Below, in pieces: positions 12,327-23,143 of a stretch of 64,000 nucleotides of DNA (position 1 is its first letter; each line of letters opens with the position of its first letter). Source of the stretch: Desulfovibrio legallii (lineage in GTDB: Bacteria > Desulfobacterota > Desulfovibrionia > Desulfovibrionales > Desulfovibrionaceae); contig NZ_SIXC01000007.1 in assembly GCF_004309735.1 (NCBI RefSeq), positions 39,226 through 103,225 of the forward strand. The letters run 5' to 3'. A program made the translations under genes and the position numbers. Under the pieces are notes generated by a model. The model made no database searches and had not been told where the DNA came from. It worked only from the letters and a program-made list of their open reading frames with translations.

Positions 12327-14054
12327 TTACAGCGTGCCCGCGTCTTCGTTTTCGTCCTGGACGGGAGCTTCCACCGCGGCCTGGGGCGGTTCCGCCGGCA
12401 GGGTGACGATAAAAGTGCTGCCCTCGCCGGGGGTGCTGCGCACCTCAATGCGCCCGCCCAGTTTTTCCAGAATGGTAAAGCAGATGGCCAGGCCCAGGCC
12501 CGTGCCCTCCCCCACCTTTTTGGTCGTAAAGAAGGGGTCAAAAATCTGTTTCATGGTAGTCTGATCCATGCCGGGGCCGGTATCTGTAAAGAGCACCTGT
12601 ACCCCGTCCTTATGGGGCCGGGTGTGGATGGTCAGGCTGCCGTCCTTGCCCATAGCGTCAATGGCGTTGTCGATGATATTGATGCAGACCTGCTCCAGCT
12701 GGGCCGGATCGGAAAGAATGACCGGCGTCTGACTGTCGTATTCTTTGACAATGGCGATATTGCGGCCCGTGGCCTCGGTTTTGAGCATGTCCACGGCCTG
12801 GTCCAGCAAGGAGTTAATAAGGATTTCCGTCCGACCTGGGTTCATGCGGCGGCCGAAACCGAGCATGCGTTGGGTAATACCCTTGGCCCGCTTGACATGT
12901 TGCTCAATCTTTTCCGTACTCTCTGAAATTTCTTTGTAATTTTTCATTTTTGCCGGGTCTTCGTCCTCCAGCAGGTCGCGGATCCAACCGGCGTTTTCCT
13001 GAATAAGCATAAGGGGATTGTTGACCTCGTGGGCCACGCCGGCGGCCATCTTGCCCAGGGCCGCCATCTTGCTGGACTGGAGCATGCGCGCGTCTATGTG
13101 GGCCTGGCGGTGGTCTGCGGCCTCCAGCGAGGCCACCATCCGCCTGGTGCAGAGCTCCGCCCCCACGCAGACCAGCGCCCCGCCCAAAAGCATAAAGAAG
13201 GTGATGAGAGCCCGCAGCTGCCGCAAGGGGCGCAGGCTTTCACGCACGTCGTCCAGCACCACCAGCACCCAGGGCATGGATTCCAGGGGCATCATGGCGC
13301 TGAGCATTTCCTGTCCGTCCGGCGTGGTGATGCGGCTGGTGACCACGCCAGCCCGGCCCGTCGGCGGCAGGGGCTGGTCAAAGCGGCTCATGATGCCGCC
13401 GTGGTAGCGGGAGGCGGTCTGCAGTACGCCCTTGGAATTGACAATGAAAGCGTCACTGTGCGGGCCGGAGTAGACGCGGCGCAGCAGGGCGTCGATGGCG
13501 TCCATGTCGATGGTGGCCCGCAGAATGAAGCTCCGCCCGCCCACATGGCGCAGTACGGCCACAATAAAGTGCGGCACATGGCGGTAGCCCAGAAACACGT
13601 CGCTCACATACACGCCCTTGCGCAGCACCTCCCCAAACCAGTCGGCTTCCATATAATTGGCTGCGCGCAGGTCAAAGGGCCCCACATAGGCCACATGTCT
13701 GCCGTCCATGCCGATGATGCCCACATCCACAAAGGAGCGGCTGTTGGACTGCATGACGCTGAAAATGGCGCTCAGGCGCGCGGGGTCGCTCAGTTCTTCA
13801 TAGCTGTGGGTGAAGGCCAGCGTTTTGATCTGGGCCACACGCTCCACCATGAAGGTGTCCAGGGCGCGGTGCTTGCTGCTGATGACAGCCTCAATGCCCG
13901 CGCTGATCTTTTCATCATAAATAGCCCCCAGGCGGTCCAGGCAAAACAGCCCCAGCGCCACCAGAGGCGTGAGGGCCATGAGCAGCAGGGTCGCCAACAG
14001 GCGGCGATAGATGACTTTGTACCCGCGCAGGGGCGCGGCGGCCACCACAGACAT
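12327..14054 (-). CDS. dCache sensor histidine kinase
   Basis: 575 residues. Transmembrane helix 1 is at about 17-39, a periplasmic dCache-type sensory region at 45-270 and helix 2 at 283-303. The HisKA H-box MAAGVAHEVNNPL has the phospho-acceptor H342, and the HATPase domain has N-box NIIDNAIDAM, G1 DTGPGMD, F-box FDPFFTTK and G2 GEGTGLGLAI. The C-terminal tail is Pro/Glu-rich. It senses something outside the membrane, possibly a small organic acid as many dCache domains do. Its ATG overlaps the stop of paralogue B (TGATG), linking it tightly to the PEP-synthase-like gene. Confidence 0.93.
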   Translation of the reverse strand: MSVVAAAPLRGYKVIYRRLLATLLLMALTPLVALGLFCLDRLGAIYDEKISAGIEAVISSKHRALDTFMVERVAQIKTLAFTHSYEELSDPARLSAIFSVMQSNSRSFVDVGIIGMDGRHVAYVGPFDLRAANYMEADWFGEVLRKGVYVSDVFLGYRHVPHFIVAVLRHVGGRSFILRATIDMDAIDALLRRVYSGPHSDAFIVNSKGVLQTASRYHGGIMSRFDQPLPPTGRAGVVTSRITTPDGQEMLSAMMPLESMPWVLVVLDDVRESLRPLRQLRALITFFMLLGGALVCVGAELCTRRMVASLEAADHRQAHIDARMLQSSKMAALGKMAAGVAHEVNNPLMLIQENAGWIRDLLEDEDPAKMKNYKEISESTEKIEQHVKRAKGITQRMLGFGRRMNPGRTEILINSLLDQAVDMLKTEATGRNIAIVKEYDSQTPVILSDPAQLEQVCINIIDNAIDAMGKDGSLTIHTRPHKDGVQVLFTDTGPGMDQTTMKQIFDPFFTTKKVGEGTGLGLAICFTILEKLGGRIEVRSTPGEGSTFIVTLPAEPPQAAVEAPVQDENEDAGTL

Positions 14055-16690
14055 CAGTTTCCCTCCCCGCCGTCGGGCGCGGCGGTCACGGACGCGGCCT
14101 TTTGCGCTGCGTCCCTGGCCGGTGATCCGCTGAGCGGTTCGCCCCGGTACAAGGCCCGGCAGTGCTGCAGCATTTCTTCCCGCCGGACAGCCACCTGGGC
14201 CGCGTCCTGCATGATCATGTCCAGCTGGCGGGTGTGGATGGTCATATAGCCGGCCACGGCCAGCAGACGCGCGCCTTCCTCCGGTTCAAAGCCCTTGAGG
14301 GTGGCGCTCACGGCGTCGTTATGCAGGGCCGGAGCCAGGCCGAATTCCCAAAGGATATCGGCCACAAAACGCACTCGCAGCATACGACGCTCAATATCCG
14401 CAGCGCCGCCGCGCAACTGAAAATTCAGATAGTTTTCGGAAACGCGCTCGGAAAGCCGCGCCTCTACCGAAACAAAATGAAAGCCAAAGCGCGAGTGCAG
14501 GCTGCAATAATCGCGCGAAACCAAAAAATAGTTCTTTTCAGTGAAATACGCCGTTTGCGAGGCCGGGTCCAGATGCGGATTGGCCGTGGCCTCAAACAGT
14601 ACGGACAAAAAGCCTTTGCCATCCACGGGCGGTGGCCCCTGCCAGGGCCAGGCGTTCATGCCGCGCCACAGGGCCAGCATGGGGCGCGAGGCGATGTCCT
14701 CCACGTCGATGACCGGCCCCGGCGGCGTCACGCGAAAGCCGTCGCTCAGGTTTACCACCCAGAACTGTTTGGGCACTTTGTCCCGAAGCTGCTTGACCCG
14801 CTGCGGCGCGTAGGCCTTGGCCGCGCCCAGGCTGAACATGGCGCTCACGGCCCGCTCATGGCAATAACGCCCGATATCGTGGTAGGTGGCGCAGTTGGCG
14901 GCTTTGAAGTCCACACTGTCCACCTCCAGAGTCAGGGGCAGAATATGGCGCGAGGCGTTCTGCAGAATGCGGTACACAGGGCTGCCGGGCATATAGTCCT
15001 TCCCCGCCGGGGTGTTGGGCAGCACGGCTTCGCGGCGGTCCATGTAGACCGTGCGCAGGTCCGCGCAAAGGGTCACGGGCTGGCCGTTCTCCACCACTTC
15101 CGTGGCCCAGGCCATGCCAAACACGGCGGGCTTGCCAAACTCCCGCGCCAGCGAGGCCAGGCGCGACCCCTGAAAACCGCGCTCCACCACCAGCCCGGCC
15201 ACACGGTCAATAAGCGCGCCCCACATGTAGTTGTCGTCCGGCAGCACCAGGATGCCGCCCGTGGGGAAACGCCGGGCGTCGTCCCAGCGACGCGCCACCC
15301 AGGCCGGGCCCCAGGTTCTGCCTGGATTGACCGTAAAGCCCCCTTCCAGCAATATGGCGTCGTCCAGCTCCGGCGGGGGCGCGGCTTCCTCCGGCAGCGC
15401 GGCCGGAGGGCGGACCATGGGACGGGTCATGAGCAGCCGCGCCTGCCCCGCTGGCGTGCGCACCCAGGTGACGGCCTGGGGCGCGCCCTCGGCTTCTTCC
15501 ACCTCCAGGGCCAGACGGGCCGCCTGCAGCGCCGTGGCCTCGTCCAGCACAGGGCGCAACACCCGGTGCGGATGACGCTCCACCACGCGCTGCGGCGCGG
15601 CACGGGTTACCTGCGCCGTATCCACGGGCAAGGCAGAATATTCCAGATCCTGTGGCAGGCCCTCACAGGCGTAGACGTGGACGTAAGGGCTCTCCGGGCG
15701 CAAAGGCGCGGCGGACTGCACCAGCCCCCCCCAGCAGCCTGCCTCCACCGCCAGGCAGGTGACGCACAGCCCTGCCCCGCCCTCCGTAAGCCCGCGCGCC
15801 CGACGGTAGACCAGGGCCTGAGCGCGCTGTTTGCCGGCCAGAGTTTTGTGCACAGCCTCCAGAATGGCCGCGTCCGGCGCGTCCAGGGGCACGGGCGGTC
15901 CCCAGAGCACCATGCCGCAGCCTTCTTCCGTGGGGGCTTCGGGCGGCCAGACCCGGCCACGCAGCAACAGCCGCATGGACGCGGGATCGCAGCCCTGGCG
16001 CAGCCGCGCCACTTCCGTCAGAATCGCGTCGCTCAGTTCCTCCGGCAAGGGGGTGGCCTCCACCAACTGGCCCAGCTGGCGGGAAAGTTTGGCCAGATGC
16101 ATGGGGGCAAGCCCCCCGGCAGCCTGGATGCGCCGGTTGATTTCGCTCTGCAGGTCGCCGTGCTGGAAAAAATGCCGACAGCCTGCGCCGGTGAGGACAA
16201 AGCCCTGCGGCACAGCCTCAGGAAAGCGCCCGCGCAAGGCCTCCAGCCGCAGTGTGGCCGGATCCACCTGGGCCTCGTGCAACGCCCCCTGCCCCTGGCC
16301 CAGGGGCAGGGTCAAGGGCCCCAGCAAACAGGATTCCGGCTCGTAGACCTCACAGGCCACCAGCTTCTGCAACTGGTCAAAGCGCTCGTACAGCGCGGCG
16401 CAGGGGCCTGGGTCCAGCCGCTCCAGCTGCTGGATGCACTGAAAGACCTGGGTGGCCACCTTGGTGCACAGGGCGCGCACCCGGTAGAGGCCAAAAGGAT
16501 GGTCGCAACAAAGGGTATATTCCACATCGGCCATTGTTTCCTGAAAGGTATTCCAGGCCGTAAGGAAAAGTTTGAAGGAATGGTGTCGCAAGGCAAAAAG
16601 CCGCTCGGCCTCGTCGGGCGAACGGACTTCGGACCGCTCCTGGCGTTTGGCGGAAGGCAGAAAAAAGCCCAGCAAACGGCTGAGGGACAT
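14054..16690 (-). CDS. PEP-synthase-like pseudoenzyme (paralogue B)
   Basis: 878 residues from the ATG at 16690 (GGGGAG 6 bases upstream). It is collinear with paralogue A: N-terminal CTKVATQVFQCIQQLE matches A's CTRAVTAVFQMVREL, and C-terminal YHDIGRYCHE, FQLRGGAAD and HTRQLDMIMQDAA match A's SLHDITRFCHE, FQFKGGAAD and HTRQVDMIM. The active-site elements are degraded: the RSSAVGED block reads RGRVWPPEAP and the GGMAGH phosphohistidine site reads GFQGSR, with Arg (about residue 510) in place of His. It should therefore not carry the phosphohistidine. A regulatory or scaffold role beside paralogue A is the simplest reading. First gene of the operon. Confidence 0.82.
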   Translation of the reverse strand: MSLSRLLGFFLPSAKRQERSEVRSPDEAERLFALRHHSFKLFLTAWNTFQETMADVEYTLCCDHPFGLYRVRALCTKVATQVFQCIQQLERLDPGPCAALYERFDQLQKLVACEVYEPESCLLGPLTLPLGQGQGALHEAQVDPATLRLEALRGRFPEAVPQGFVLTGAGCRHFFQHGDLQSEINRRIQAAGGLAPMHLAKLSRQLGQLVEATPLPEELSDAILTEVARLRQGCDPASMRLLLRGRVWPPEAPTEEGCGMVLWGPPVPLDAPDAAILEAVHKTLAGKQRAQALVYRRARGLTEGGAGLCVTCLAVEAGCWGGLVQSAAPLRPESPYVHVYACEGLPQDLEYSALPVDTAQVTRAAPQRVVERHPHRVLRPVLDEATALQAARLALEVEEAEGAPQAVTWVRTPAGQARLLMTRPMVRPPAALPEEAAPPPELDDAILLEGGFTVNPGRTWGPAWVARRWDDARRFPTGGILVLPDDNYMWGALIDRVAGLVVERGFQGSRLASLAREFGKPAVFGMAWATEVVENGQPVTLCADLRTVYMDRREAVLPNTPAGKDYMPGSPVYRILQNASRHILPLTLEVDSVDFKAANCATYHDIGRYCHERAVSAMFSLGAAKAYAPQRVKQLRDKVPKQFWVVNLSDGFRVTPPGPVIDVEDIASRPMLALWRGMNAWPWQGPPPVDGKGFLSVLFEATANPHLDPASQTAYFTEKNYFLVSRDYCSLHSRFGFHFVSVEARLSERVSENYLNFQLRGGAADIERRMLRVRFVADILWEFGLAPALHNDAVSATLKGFEPEEGARLLAVAGYMTIHTRQLDMIMQDAAQVAVRREEMLQHCRALYRGEPLSGSPARDAAQKAASVTAAPDGGEGN

Positions 16691-17080
16691 GGCGGCTCCC
16701 CTGGCGCAGATGTGCCCGAATTGGTCCCGGACACGGCGTGCCGGGCCGGGTACGTCTTTGACGCTAGCACAGGCCGCCACGGCCTTCAAGCGCATGTGCC
16801 GAAAAGCGCAAGTTTTTTCGTCGCAGCCCCTTGGGGCCGTGCAGAGCCGCGACGCTTTGCGGGGAAGAACCCGTTTGAAAAAGGGGCTGCCGCGCCTCCT
16901 CCCCTGAAACTTTTATTCTTTGGATCAGGCTGCAACAGCAAACCGATGGCTGTAACAAAATTCTTTAATTATATAGTTTACCATATATTATCTGTACATA
17001 AAATTCAGTTAATTTATAAAAATTATTTACTATGTTCAGTAAACCCCACTCCGGCGCTGCACCGGACAGCCCTGTTGCGC
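16691..17080. other. Intergenic region upstream of the PEP-synthase-like operon
   Basis: 390 bp with no credible gene. The part 16955-17040 is very AT-rich and is the likely promoter region for the minus-strand operon. Toward 16823-16890 it holds an inverted repeat with 10-bp arms (GCAGCCCCTT 16823-16832 and AAGGGGCTGC 16881-16890) and a stretch CCCCTGAAACTTTTATTC partly shared with other intergenic spots in this window. Confidence 0.55.
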
Positions 17081-18556: not shown

Positions 18557-20233
18557 TCAGCGTTCATGGTCCGCACCGGGCAGAAAGCCGCCCTGAGTGA
18601 GCACGTTGCGGGCCGCATCGTCTTCTTCCAGCGGAAAAAGTTCTTCTTCCAGTTCGGCGAGGCTGGGTTCGGCCGCAACCGCTGCGGCCGGATGCGCTGA
18701 GGACGGTCCCGATTGCTGCGGCGCTGCTGCGGCGGAAGGCAACACACCTGAACCGGACGACGCGGCCAGACCGGAAGGCGTGACGGTTTCCGCCGGGGCC
18801 GACGGCGCAGCGGCGTCCGCTCCGGCGGAAACAGCAGCGCCGGCACCGTCCACAGAGGGCGCGGCAGCAGGGGCCGACGGCGCAGCGCCAGCCGTTTCTG
18901 GCGCCAGAGGTTCGTCCAGAGGCGGCACACTTTGGGATTCTGCTGCTGCGGCAACGGAAGGGGACTCAGAAGGCACGGCGGATGCCGCCACAGTCGCCGT
19001 GTGAGGGTCCGGCGCGGAGGGGTCCGTGGCGGGGAGTTCTGCAGGCATAGTGCCGGATGCGGCAGGCGCGGACAAAGAGCTGTCTGCCGGGGGCGCAGCG
19101 GTCTGAGAAGTCGGTCCCGGCGCGACAGGGGGAATACCCTGTTCCAAAGAAGCCGTCGGGGCCGCAGGTTGCGACAAAGGCGCGTCGGGGGCGGAAAGTT
19201 CGCTGGCAGGTCCTTCCGGAGCTGCAGGCGCGGCCTCCGGCGCCACCGCGTGTAGGGTTGCTGCAGCAGGGGATTCTGCTCCCGCAGGGGCGTCCGGCGC
19301 GGCCAGACGCGCCGCCTCCTGAGCCACAAGGTCACCCAGGGCGGCGGCTTCCGCAGCTTCTTCGGGGCGCTGGGGCAGGGTCAGGTGGGTCAGCACGCCC
19401 GCCACCATATCGCTGAAATAGGCCCGGCGGCAATCCACGCTGCCGCTGCCGCTTTCCGCCACCAGATCGCCGGGTTCCAGGTTCGGGTCGCCCGTGACCA
19501 CCCACTGACGCAGTTCGGGCGCACGCTCCCGCGCGGCCTGAAACAATCCGCCCACAGAGGCCTCGTCATCAGGGTGCACGCGCACGCTGATGCTGGTGCG
19601 ATCTTCCAGCAGGTTGACGGCCTCCAGCACCAAACGGCGCAGAACGGCCTCATGCTCGCTGTGCAGCAGCCAGCCCGTGCCCGCCTCCACGGCGGCCAGG
19701 GTCAGAGCCGTCAGATCTTCGCGCCAGGAGGCGCAGAGGGCGTCCTGACGCTTTTCCAGACGGCGCAGCAGCGTGGCGAGGCTCTGGCCCAGCTCCTGCC
19801 GAAAGGCGGTCAGTTCTGCTCCGGCGGCGTCCATACCGGCCTGAAAGCCCTCGTCATGGGCGGCCTCGCGCAGGCGGGCCGCTTCTTCCCGCAGCTGTAC
19901 GGCCGATTCGCGTTCCTGCCGCGCCGCTTCCTGGGCCGCACGGGCATGGTCCCGCAGCTCTGTCGCCTCATGGGTCAGCGCCTTGGCGGCGGCCACGGCT
20001 TCGTCGCGGGCCTCGTCCAGCACCTTCTGACGCTCGGCATAGGCGGCCCCCAGAATTTCCCGCGCGCGCTCCTCGGCTCTGGCGCGCACCCGCGCCAGGT
20101 AGTCTTCCTCCTGCTGCTGCCGGCGGCGCTGGCGCAGGGCCGGTTCTTGCAGGGCATCGAGCTGGGCCTCGGAGGCTTCCCGCTCGCCCATGAAGACAGT
20201 GCCCCATTTTTTGCGCAGTTGGTCCGAGGCCAT
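18557..20233 (-). CDS. fliH: Flagellar assembly protein FliH with long C-terminal extension
   Basis: 558 residues; FliH is usually 220-280. Residues 1-280 are a normal FliH: charged coiled coil (40-130), then the stator-like domain with VHPDDE, WVVTGDPNLEPGDLVAESGSG and AGVLTHL. Residues about 290-510 are an Ala/Pro/Ser/Glu low-complexity region. The last ~35 residues are again structured-looking and acidic (LAELEEELFPLEEDD, then VLTQGGFLPGADHER). FliH binds and regulates FliI, whose gene follows 9 bp later. The frame is uninterrupted, so the extension is genuine unless assembly is wrong. Confidence 0.93.
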   Translation of the reverse strand: MASDQLRKKWGTVFMGEREASEAQLDALQEPALRQRRRQQQEEDYLARVRARAEERAREILGAAYAERQKVLDEARDEAVAAAKALTHEATELRDHARAAQEAARQERESAVQLREEAARLREAAHDEGFQAGMDAAGAELTAFRQELGQSLATLLRRLEKRQDALCASWREDLTALTLAAVEAGTGWLLHSEHEAVLRRLVLEAVNLLEDRTSISVRVHPDDEASVGGLFQAARERAPELRQWVVTGDPNLEPGDLVAESGSGSVDCRRAYFSDMVAGVLTHLTLPQRPEEAAEAAALGDLVAQEAARLAAPDAPAGAESPAAATLHAVAPEAAPAAPEGPASELSAPDAPLSQPAAPTASLEQGIPPVAPGPTSQTAAPPADSSLSAPAASGTMPAELPATDPSAPDPHTATVAASAVPSESPSVAAAAESQSVPPLDEPLAPETAGAAPSAPAAAPSVDGAGAAVSAGADAAAPSAPAETVTPSGLAASSGSGVLPSAAAAPQQSGPSSAHPAAAVAAEPSLAELEEELFPLEEDDAARNVLTQGGFLPGADHER

Positions 20234-20267: not shown

Positions 20268-21263
20268 CTACACAAAGACGTCGCCCGCACCGCGGCTGAC
20301 GACAAGTTTGTTTTCTCCTTCCAGGCGGCGCACGATCTTGACGATATCCTGCTGTGCGCCCTCTACGTCCGAAAGTTTGGTGGGGCCCATAAATTCCAGC
20401 TCTTCGCGGATCATGTTGCCGGCACGCTCCGACATGTTTTTGAAGAACTTTTCCTTCAGTTCGTCGCTGGCGCCGCGCAGGGCCAGGGTCAGCTGTTCGT
20501 TGGGCACTTCCTTGAGCAGTTCGCGCATGCCGCGGTCGTCAATATTCTTGCAGTCCTCAAAGACAAACATGAGGTTGCGGATGTCTTCAGCCATCTGGGC
20601 GGAGTCTTCTTCAATTTCCGAAAGCACTTCCTCTTCGGTGGCACGGTCCACAGCGTTGAGGATTTCTGCCACGGACTGCACGCCGCCCACCTTTTTGCCT
20701 TCCTTGCCGCCCATGGCGATGAGCTGGCTGGTGAGCACCCTGTCCACTTCCATAAGCATATCCTCAGGCACGGCCTCCAGCCGGGCCAGACGCATAAGCA
20801 CTTCGGCCCGCACGCCCGCAGGCAGGTTTGTCAACAAATTGGCGGCCTGGTCGGGGTTGAGGTGCCCAAGGATGAGGGCCAGGGTCTGGGGGTGTTCGTT
20901 GCGCAGGATCTGCGCCAGCAACCGGGGGCTGACCTGCTCCAGCTCGCGGAAAGGAGCCGGTCCCGTGTCCAGATTGAGGGAATCCAGAATATACTTGGTG
21001 GTTTCGGGGTCCACGTTCTTGACCAGCAGGCGCTTGAGGGTGTCGGAACCGCCGGCGATCATGTCCACGCCCTCTACCAGGGATTCGTGAAACTCGCGCA
21101 GCACTTCCTCAACGGTTTCGCGCGGCACGGGCTCCAGCTCTACAATGGCCTTGGAGATTTCGGCAATCTCTTGCCGGTCCATGCGCTTGAACACGTCGGC
21201 CGTAAACTTGTCGCCCATGGCGAGCAAGAGCACAGCAATGCGCTGTTTGCCGGTCAACTCCAT
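20268..21263 (-). CDS. fliG: Flagellar motor switch protein FliG
   Basis: 331 residues, full length. It has the FliG N-terminal domain (LTGKQRIAVLLLAMGDKFTA), the EHPQTLALILGHL middle-domain motif and the C-terminal torque helix with charged residues (RGMRELLKEVPNEQLTLALRG). FliG links the MS ring (FliF) to the stator and to FliM. It follows the small FliF-tail-like gene by 43 bp in the fliF operon. Confidence 0.97.
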   Translation of the reverse strand: MELTGKQRIAVLLLAMGDKFTADVFKRMDRQEIAEISKAIVELEPVPRETVEEVLREFHESLVEGVDMIAGGSDTLKRLLVKNVDPETTKYILDSLNLDTGPAPFRELEQVSPRLLAQILRNEHPQTLALILGHLNPDQAANLLTNLPAGVRAEVLMRLARLEAVPEDMLMEVDRVLTSQLIAMGGKEGKKVGGVQSVAEILNAVDRATEEEVLSEIEEDSAQMAEDIRNLMFVFEDCKNIDDRGMRELLKEVPNEQLTLALRGASDELKEKFFKNMSERAGNMIREELEFMGPTKLSDVEGAQQDIVKIVRRLEGENKLVVSRGAGDVFV

Positions 21264-21306
21264 GTCCCAACTCCTTCACCGGGGGCACGCCAAAGGCCCC
21301 GGACGC

Positions 21307-21519
21307 TCATTCCTTGTCCGTCATCCAGCGCCGCACCAAACGTACGGCCTGGTCCATATGCTGCTCTGTAATGCGAAAAAGCCGCATTTTCAGTTCCTCA
21401 ATACGCTGGTTGCTCTCTTTCTGCGCCAGGCGCAGCGCCCGCAACTGCGTGAGCGAGGGGGCCGCGCCGCTGCTAGCGGCGGGCAGACGCGCCGTTTTTT
21501 GCTGTTTAGGCTGCTGCAT
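21307..21519 (-). CDS. 70-residue protein resembling the FliF C-terminal tail
   Basis: A small ORF between fliF and fliG that overlaps the fliF 3' end by 14 bp. After a basic, low-complexity start its last 32 residues copy the FliG-binding tail of FliF: IEELKMRLF and HMDQAVRLVRRWM here against IEALKAHIF and HMEQVVTLVRGWM in FliF, about 14 identities in 32 aligned positions. Known biology: the FliF C-terminal helices bind the FliG N-terminal domain. It could be a FliG-binding modulator or chaperone, or a decayed duplication. The ribosome site is weak (GGATG 8 bases upstream), so translation may depend on coupling to fliF. Confidence 0.72.
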   Translation of the reverse strand: MQQPKQQKTARLPAASSGAAPSLTQLRALRLAQKESNQRIEELKMRLFRITEQHMDQAVRLVRRWMTDKE

Positions 21520-23143
21520 CGTTTTTCATCCAGCCGCGCACCAAGGTCACCACCTGCTCCATATGGTTGTCGGAAAGGGTGAAGATGTGCGCCTTGAGGG
21601 CTTCAATATCTTTGTAAATAAGCTCGTCGTCGTCCTCTTCCTGCGGGGCTTCTTCGTCGGTCTTGGCTTTTTCTTCCAGGGCCTCGTAGAGCGCAAGCTG
21701 CTCTTCGGCGGCGGGCAGGCCTTCCAGCCCCTCCACCATTTCGCCGGCCTCCACCTTGGGCCGGATCAGCGCCAGCACCACGGGCCGCACAATAAGCATG
21801 AGGAAAAGGAAGGCCAGCAGCGCCTTAAGCAGGGGCTTGCCCAGACGTTCCGCATAGTCGGCCAGCATGTCGGCGAAATTGGGATCCTTGGGCGGTTCCG
21901 AATCCGCAAAGGGAGCGGAACTTACCTCCAGGGAGTCGCCGCGCCCCGTGTCCAGCCCCACGGCGTTGGATACGAGCTGCCGCACGCGCTCAACCTCTTC
22001 AGGCTTGCGCGGCACAAAAGTCCAGGCGCCGTTGCTCTTCTCATACGTCCCATCGAGCAGAACCGCAACCGTCAGGCGGCGCACGTCGCCCACATTGGCC
22101 ACGATCTGCTGCTCTTCCTTGTTTATTTCGTAGTTGGTGGTGCGGGTTTCACGGCTGCCGTTCTGGTCGGACACAGAGCCCGTGATGCCGTCGCCGCGAA
22201 AGTTCACGTCCGGGGAGCCGGCCTCCAGGTTGGCACGGCCCTGCTGGGATTCCTCACTGCGCTGTTCGCTGCGCACCACGGTTTTTTCCGGGTCGAAGAG
22301 CTCACGCCGGATGGTCTTCTGGCTGAAATCCAGCTCGGCATTAACCTTGGCGATGACCCGGCCGGGGCCGAAGATGGGCTGGAGCATTTCTTCAATGCGG
22401 CGCTCCAGGTTGCGCTGCATCTGGTTGCGGTATTCCATCTGCGTGGTGCTCATGCCGGCCAGGCTGTCTTCCTCCGGCTGATAGAGCACCTTGCCGCCGT
22501 TGTCCGTAATGGAAAGGTGGCCTTTGTCCAGCCCTTCCACGGCCATAAGCATCATGTTGACGACAGCGTTGATTTCCTTCTGGTCCGGCTTGGCGCTGGG
22601 GCGCTTGAGCTTGAGCACCACCGAGGCTGAGGGCGATTGCCGCTCTTCCACAAACAGGCTGCGCCGGGGGATGACCAGGTGCACGCGCGCGCTTTCCACA
22701 CTGGGAAATTCGCTGATGGTGCGGGCCAGCTCCCCTTGCAGGGCGCGGGTGTAGTTGACCTTCTGCACAAAGTCCGTCTGGCCCACCTTGATCTTGTCAA
22801 AAATCTCAAAGCCGATGCCTTGCCCCACCAGGCCGCCTTCGCCGGCGATCTTGATGCGCTGGTCGTACACGGCTTCCTTGGGCACCATGATGGTGCCGCC
22901 TTTGTCGGCAATTTTATAGGGAACTTTGTCGGCCTGCAGAGCCTTGAGCACCACGCCGGCGTCTTCGGGTCCCAGGTTGGAATAGAGCACGCGGTAGTCC
23001 GGCCGGCTCAGCCAGACCGAAAGGCCCAGGGCCCCGGCCATGAGGGCCGTTATGCCGCCCAAAAGGGCAAAACGCTGCCATGTCTGCAGGCGCGTCCAGA
23101 AATTTTTGAAGGAGGCCAGGAGTTGGGTAAGAAAAGCCGGCAT
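21506..23143 (-). CDS. fliF: Flagellar MS-ring protein FliF
   Basis: 545 residues, normal length. It has an N-terminal transmembrane segment (about 25-46), ring-building motifs (YRVLYSNLGPEDAGVVLKAL, ARVHLVIPRRSLFVEE), a second transmembrane segment near 445-465 (LLKALLAFLFLMLIVRPVV) and the FliG-binding tail ending HMEQVVTLVRGWMKNDAAA. FliF forms the inner-membrane MS ring. It heads a fliF-smallORF-fliG-fliH-fliI operon with a consensus sigma-54 promoter 64 bp upstream of the ATG. Confidence 0.98.
   Translation of the reverse strand: MPAFLTQLLASFKNFWTRLQTWQRFALLGGITALMAGALGLSVWLSRPDYRVLYSNLGPEDAGVVLKALQADKVPYKIADKGGTIMVPKEAVYDQRIKIAGEGGLVGQGIGFEIFDKIKVGQTDFVQKVNYTRALQGELARTISEFPSVESARVHLVIPRRSLFVEERQSPSASVVLKLKRPSAKPDQKEINAVVNMMLMAVEGLDKGHLSITDNGGKVLYQPEEDSLAGMSTTQMEYRNQMQRNLERRIEEMLQPIFGPGRVIAKVNAELDFSQKTIRRELFDPEKTVVRSEQRSEESQQGRANLEAGSPDVNFRGDGITGSVSDQNGSRETRTTNYEINKEEQQIVANVGDVRRLTVAVLLDGTYEKSNGAWTFVPRKPEEVERVRQLVSNAVGLDTGRGDSLEVSSAPFADSEPPKDPNFADMLADYAERLGKPLLKALLAFLFLMLIVRPVVLALIRPKVEAGEMVEGLEGLPAAEEQLALYEALEEKAKTDEEAPQEEDDDELIYKDIEALKAHIFTLSDNHMEQVVTLVRGWMKNDAAA

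Follow-up and report, generated by a model that had tools for sequence, protein, structure and literature searches.

The contact between the C-terminal tail of FliF and the N-terminal domain of FliG (FliG-N) links the membrane ring of the flagellum to the switch ring and transmits torque. Why, then, should a flagellar operon encode what looks like this tail twice, once at the end of FliF and once as a small separate protein? The question is raised by a 64,000-nucleotide stretch of the Desulfovibrio legallii genome (contig NZ_SIXC01000007.1, positions 39,226 to 103,225), referred to here as the window. An earlier note on this DNA had claimed a 70-codon open reading frame between fliF and fliG that overlaps the 3' end of fliF by 14 nt, and this frame (the free-tail ORF) is present exactly as described. 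The features that matter for the analysis are all on the minus strand:

20268..21263, minus strand: fliG, 331 aa, assigned by domain match, the sole FliG found in this genome; its N-terminal domain is the proposed partner of the free tail
21271..21276, minus strand: Shine-Dalgarno sequence of fliG, AAGGAG, which contrasts with the 3-base match of the free-tail ORF
21307..21519, minus strand: free-tail ORF, 70 aa, ATG start, a free-standing FliF C-tail paralogue judging by its sequence and homologues
21310..21414, minus strand: conserved tail-like core of the ORF, residues 36-70, delimited by dN/dS and by residue counts in 55 distinct homologues
21415..21519, minus strand: variable N-terminal arm of the ORF, residues 1-35, characterized by linker dN/dS and by helix prediction in the homologue at locus L038
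21506..21519, minus strand: 14-nt overlap of the ORF start with the 3' end of fliF, suggestive of translational coupling
21506..23143, minus strand: fliF, 545 aa, with domains PF01514 and PF08345
21527..21607, minus strand: FliF's own C-tail, residues 513-539, homologous to the ORF core by local alignment

In the window, fliG starts 43 nt downstream of the ORF stop. The ORF protein contains 14 K/R and 7 D/E residues. Local alignment pairs its residues 40-66 with FliF residues 513-539 without gaps, 14 of the 27 positions being identical. The BLOSUM62 score is 78, and none of 5000 shuffled versions of the ORF scored above 46; this test, together with conservation of the ORF, rules out chance similarity to the FliF tail. 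Thus, the homology asserted in the earlier note is real, although the repeat, put there at the last 32 residues, amounts to 27 residues as an ungapped local match. Searched against its own genome at E ≤ 1, the ORF recovers itself and the FliF tail (E 4.4e-4) alone. No Pfam family matched it above the curated cut-off (the best, HR1, scored 16.4 bits against a cut-off of 33.1), and a search of NCBIfam gave no match. The YscJ/FliF ring domains PF01514 and PF08345 are both found in FliF and neither is found in the ORF, which therefore is not a FliF. By its homologous two-helix tail sequence the ORF passes as a FliF C-tail module (FliF_C); it is not, however, tethered to the MS ring as a piece of FliF, as all 57 homologues in the genus are separate open frames.

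The ORF and the FliF tail differ in a characteristic way. Position 39 is R in all 28 ORFs compared, and the residue before the conserved W is R in 24 of them; in FliF tails, position 39 is mostly D in the same group (22/28) and often K in the outgroup (14/26), and the residue before W is G (20/28) or S (12/26), respectively. Inspected by eye, both the ORF and the FliF tail differ at sites where 14 outgroup FliF tails never vary, so that specificity may have shifted. We considered whether the ORF might be the keeper of the ancestral tail while FliF itself drifted. This was not supported, since FliF tails do slightly better than the ORFs against an HMM built from outgroup tails (mean 35.3 bits, against 33.1 bits for the 53 ORFs from the same loci), the ORF exceeding its same-locus FliF tail in 17 of 53 cases. 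Judged by its sequence, the free-tail ORF is paralogous to the final ~33 residues of FliF, preceded by a short basic arm.

The genus was surveyed in 79 genomes, and 57 of them contain an intact standalone homologue, with an open frame of 64-95 aa and without an internal stop. Several of these genomes share their ORF DNA, letter for letter, with named Desulfovibrio loci, and this identity fixes the genus. The distribution follows that of the native FliG (E below 1e-130), which is likewise present in 57 of 79 genomes, 56 of them with the ORF. Four genomes that have a distant FliG alone (~33% identity) do not have the ORF. These are G016, G017, G060 and G061 (loci L113, L114, L115 and L116), and their sequences suggest that the native flagellar set was replaced. 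The only native-FliG genome without an intact ORF is G014, a genome of 1.6 Mb with a decayed operon. Here one open frame (L112:4171-5184) runs through the beginning of fliF, what is left of the ORF and a truncated fliG, and FliG matches to about residue 250 and no further. The in-frame arrangement was considered as a natural fusion of the ORF with FliG and rejected in favor of a decayed operon in which both fliF and fliG are truncated. Among the 18 genomes without a FliG match, several of which are incomplete, G038 alone has the ORF; it adjoins fliF, and the contig stops 557 bases on, with no FliG match. In G076, also from this set, the contig stops just past fliF, and in G020 there is a weak ORF match with an internal stop. 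In short, the free-tail ORF is located with flagellar genes and is absent without them.

A similar partition is seen among 80 FliG loci. The best 40 of them (L032-L071, FliG identity 82-92%) all have the ORF between fliF and fliG, while the remaining 40 include 33 with an upstream fliF but no ORF and seven without an adjacent fliF. Many of these 40 ORF-less loci are labeled Desulfovibrio in their records; therefore, the NCBI name alone is no predictor of the gene. In the seven split loci (L072, L073, L074, L077, L079, L083 and L084; labeled Mailhella in three cases, Desulfovibrionaceae in two and Desulfovibrio in two), fliG lies behind other genes and not beside fliF. The spacer between the ORF and fliG ranges from 27 to 337 nt across species (loci L009, L018, L045, L050, L063 and L070).

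To describe selection on the ORF, we calculated dN/dS (Nei-Gojobori, as the ratio of mean distances) for 55 of the 56 distinct ORFs, the one that contains N being dropped. The core (residues 36-70) gave 0.065, 0.13 and 0.13 in three divergence bins and the arm (residues 6-35) 0.28-0.38, with 0.03-0.08 for FliG and the same range for the FliF tail; the pairs behind these values are interdependent, and saturation is approached in the deeper bins. Hence the core is constrained, yet less than FliG or FliF's own tail. At the level of individual residues, R39 and L43 are each present in 55 of 55 distinct homologues and W65 in 54 of 55. The earlier note had named absence from close relatives, frameshifts in siblings and a neutral substitution pattern as outcomes that would speak against it. 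Instead, close relatives do have the ORF (57 of 79 genomes, including 56 of the 57 with native FliG), none of the 57 homologues has an internal stop, and the core evolves under purifying selection (0.065-0.13). A duplication remnant kept by coupling, which the note had also entertained, is unlikely given this conservation, the intact frames and the purifying selection, and a neutral remnant is strongly disfavored by the core dN/dS and conservation. Comparative sequence data thus indicate that the free-tail ORF is a real flagellar gene clearly kept by selection.

How the ORF is translated is suggested by its arrangement. In all 56 distinct genus homologues the start codon is inside fliF, and the overlap runs for 14-32 nt through the fliF stop codon; its length is always 2 mod 3 in the genus, which fixes the relative frame. 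The start codon is ATG in 55 of the 56 and GTG followed by ATG in the remaining one. Upstream of the start the frame is open for just 1-2 codons in 44 homologues (two in the window), for 9 codons in 11 and for 20 in one. The region upstream of the ORF has just a 3-base match to the Shine-Dalgarno consensus in 49 of 56 cases, the window copy included, and AAGGAG is present upstream of fliG in 45 of 55. A start that lies inside fliF and is preceded by a mere 3-base match points most naturally to translational coupling with fliF.

The gene extends beyond the genus. A profile of the ORFs, run against 288 genomes of the family, yielded standalone-sized matches in three more genera (g6, g32 and g40) among the matches listed. 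The eight carriers outside the genus (G090, G092, G176, G178, G183, G272, G273 and G275) each have a separate FliF match, and in seven of them the gene comes after fliF and is read in the same direction; the copy in G176 is near the start of a contig other than that of fliF. G090 (locus L127) has fliF on one side of the gene and fliG on the other, and this is the only placeable copy outside the genus that overlaps fliF. In the g32 and g40 stretches that contain both fliF and the gene (3-8 kb), the gene comes after fliF and no fliG was found. The copies from other genera are divergent, and arms and spacers are very different across the four genera; R39 and W65 are nevertheless invariant in 19 sequences from all four. 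Locus L128 (contig 197 of G092) has a FliF nearly identical to that of G178 (branches 0.006 and 0.002) despite the different genus, and from its sequence this contig may be mis-binned. Among the matches listed in a class-wide search (348 genomes, family included), there was no further standalone copy beside a FliF match, with the provision that in both searches a lone standalone copy without a recognizable FliF could have escaped notice and that, outside the four genera, frame size was seen for part of the single-match genomes. At E 0.01, the one other genome with two listed matches is G296, where the second match is inside a 509-aa frame. Most family relatives are without the gene, again among the matches listed, and since they manage without it, the gene is not generally needed for FliG assembly.

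We used FliF phylogeny, with the last 45 residues removed, to ask how often the gene arose. Of 75 hand-chosen rows (25 Desulfovibrio loci, eight from g6, g32 and g40, and 42 without the ORF), 73 were retained, one Desulfovibrio row and L089 dropping out by length. The maximum likelihood tree places the 32 ORF-bearing rows on one side and the 41 ORF-less rows on the other, with branch support of 100/99; the place of G090 inside the carrier group is weak (81/51). The 28 ORFs compared are likewise all united in a tree made from the tails alone (32 columns, 82 of 83 tails retained), which is weak because the SH-aLRT value is just 61 and many branches are long. As all sampled carriers form one group on the tail-less FliF tree, a single origin of the free-tail gene, predating the genus, is likely.

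What might the free tail bind? According to PMC6079021, FliG-N alters its conformation when it folds together with the FliF tail, and the result resembles FliG_M. A PDB search with 33 FliF-tail residues gave no match at E ≤ 10; therefore, the tail is too short and too diverged for the sequence route. A search with FliG finds the structures 5TDY and 5WUJ. We modeled the ORF of L038 and FliG-N with AlphaFold2 as one chain, joined in frame by a 19-residue linker with the stop read through, a construction that in itself favors contact. The model has a mean pLDDT of 67.8 and a pTM of 0.54. The ORF forms helices 24-54 and 56-68 (block means 69-83), so that the last third of the arm, from about residue 23, is predicted to be helical; the linker is disordered. 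FliG-N residues 91-150 have pLDDT values of 82-90, and all blocks past 150 average below 70.

Foldseek returned 5tdy_D (E 0.022) and 5wuj_B (E 0.028) as the best matches and none at E ≤ 0.001. With VIA-align the top match was Aquifex aeolicus FliG (3hjl, residues 91-193, which we take to be the FliG_M region), aligned over 103 residues at 1.8 Å with Z 12.5, although helical bundles with Z below about 13 may be a common arrangement. Model residues 27-161 are covered by the alignment, and with them both ORF helices as well as FliG-N. FliG fills the top 17 VIA-align rows, with Z values of 7.1-12.5, before the first unrelated protein appears at Z 5.3; in some rows, among them 5tdy and 5wuj, coverage is limited to the FliG-N part. 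A control chain, in which an outgroup FliF tail was joined to FliG-N, gave a mean pLDDT of 75.5 and a pTM of 0.64, and its top match was also 3hjl (Z 12.5, 1.9 Å, 103 residues). Because the model and the control share the top match, the two helices of the ORF are predicted to dock on FliG-N like a genuine FliF tail, so that in the model they complete the split ARM-like domain to which the FliF tail otherwise contributes. Binding to FliG, the lack of which the earlier note had also counted against its proposal, is thus supported by homology and by this predicted structure. Another protein with a FliG-N domain was also considered as the partner and rejected, since in the own genome just FliG, which matches twice, passes the Pfam cut-off of FliG_N.

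With the modeled dock in view, FliG-N is quite probably the partner of the free tail. Our best reading, to which we assign a probability of about 0.55, is that the ORF encodes an untethered FliF C-tail paralogue that co-folds with FliG-N as an assembly or capping factor. The overlapping start would tie synthesis of the protein to that of FliF; it would then occupy and fold those FliG-N domains that an MS-ring FliF tail has yet to engage or never engages, thereby serving as a chaperone of assembly or a cap where the MS and C rings meet. It could shield and fold FliG-N until FliF takes over, cap FliG that has no FliF tail, or compete with FliF.

A more specific version, tentative at best, would make the free tail a permanent motor subunit that fills FliG-N sites left empty because the C ring has more FliG than the MS ring has FliF. 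The stoichiometry of FliF and FliG is itself disputed (PMC11087270). The same paper reports 33 FliF to 34 FliG in one Salmonella structure and states that the ratio 'need not be 1:1'; a C ring of 34 protomers (PMC11528121) and a native MS ring of 34 FliF (PMC8270960) are reported elsewhere. The papers thus disagree on whether the numbers of FliF and FliG are unequal. If the free tail were a permanent subunit, the symmetry mismatch would be solved by a dedicated 'spare tail', and the C rings of Desulfovibrio and the sister genera should be larger or contain a set number of FliG subunits that are untethered.

Alternatively, the free tail could be a dose-dependent competitor that titrates FliG away from FliF, a brake on the number of flagella or on the number or timing of C rings. 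Possession of the same binding module as FliF, probable production alongside FliF and the predicted FliF-tail-like dock would all suit such a role. However, the ORF is apparently co-produced with FliF and not separately regulated, and a pure competitor should be cheap to lose, yet the gene is retained in 56 of 57 native-FliG genomes; we regard this reading as unlikely. Doubtful, too, is the possibility that the tail has diverged and now has a partner different from FliG-N, for example FliF itself, a placement factor of the FlhF type or some other ARM-like protein. The ORF-specific R39 (28/28) and R before W (24/28) point in that direction, as does the gene's staying near fliF rather than fliG in g32 and g40. 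Against it, the conserved core and W match the last helix of the FliF tail, FliG alone exceeds the FliG_N cut-off in the own genome, and the modeled dock matches that of the FliF tail.

A decaying duplicate, or a leader ORF of which the translation and not the product counts, is strongly disfavored and very improbable: the fliF overlap and the weak Shine-Dalgarno match would fit it, but the core dN/dS of 0.065-0.13, the near-invariant W, R and L in 55 sequences and retention in four genera despite very different arms and spacers do not. Least probable, and disfavored, is an alternative FliF C-terminus made by ribosomal frameshifting, for although the overlap is always 2 mod 3 in the genus, a stop shortly upstream of the start leaves just the last fliF codons for a shift, such an overlap is found outside the genus in L127 alone among placeable copies, and the ORF has its own start (ATG in 55 of 56, GTG then ATG in one).

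The FliF tail module as such is known, and the tails of FliF in 5TDY (Thermotoga maritima) and 5WUJ (Helicobacter pylori) are homologous two-helix tails ending in an R.W[LM]-type motif, like the one described here. In contrast to them, the free tail is a separate protein of 62-78 aa, additional to a full FliF with its own tail, and bears signature residues of its own. FliF-FliG fusions (chain 8z4d; the Salmonella fusion of PMC6079021) indicate that the unit of tail and FliG-N tolerates changed connectivity, and the FliF paralogue with a FliG domain in Chlamydia, as presented in PMC4768692, is likewise a case of changed FliF/FliG connectivity. Those fusions tie the tail to FliG, whereas the free tail is detached from both FliF and FliG. 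FlgV of H. pylori (PMC10655999) and SwrB of Bacillus subtilis (PMC4526659) are also lineage-specific accessories, located close to the MS/C ring or required to assemble or activate it; as described there, neither is presented as a copy of the FliF tail, and FlgV has transmembrane helices. We found no report of a free-standing FliF tail in the open-licence literature, and as far as we found, a separate gene for the module is apparently undescribed. A much-studied operon thereby gains a conserved protein without a Pfam or NCBIfam match, and a second, untethered copy of the tail's side of the FliF/FliG-N contact would offer a natural handle on the question whether some FliG-N domains are unoccupied by FliF.

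Two further observations concern the neighboring genes in the window. FliH (18557-20233, minus strand) is 558 aa long, and its Pfam match covers residues 149-269; beyond the match, the protein is largely an Ala/Pro/Ser-rich extension. The gene expected after fliI is fliJ. After fliI, at 14054-16795 on the minus strand, the window encodes instead a protein of 913 aa in which PPDK_N and PEP-utiliser mobile domains are recognized.
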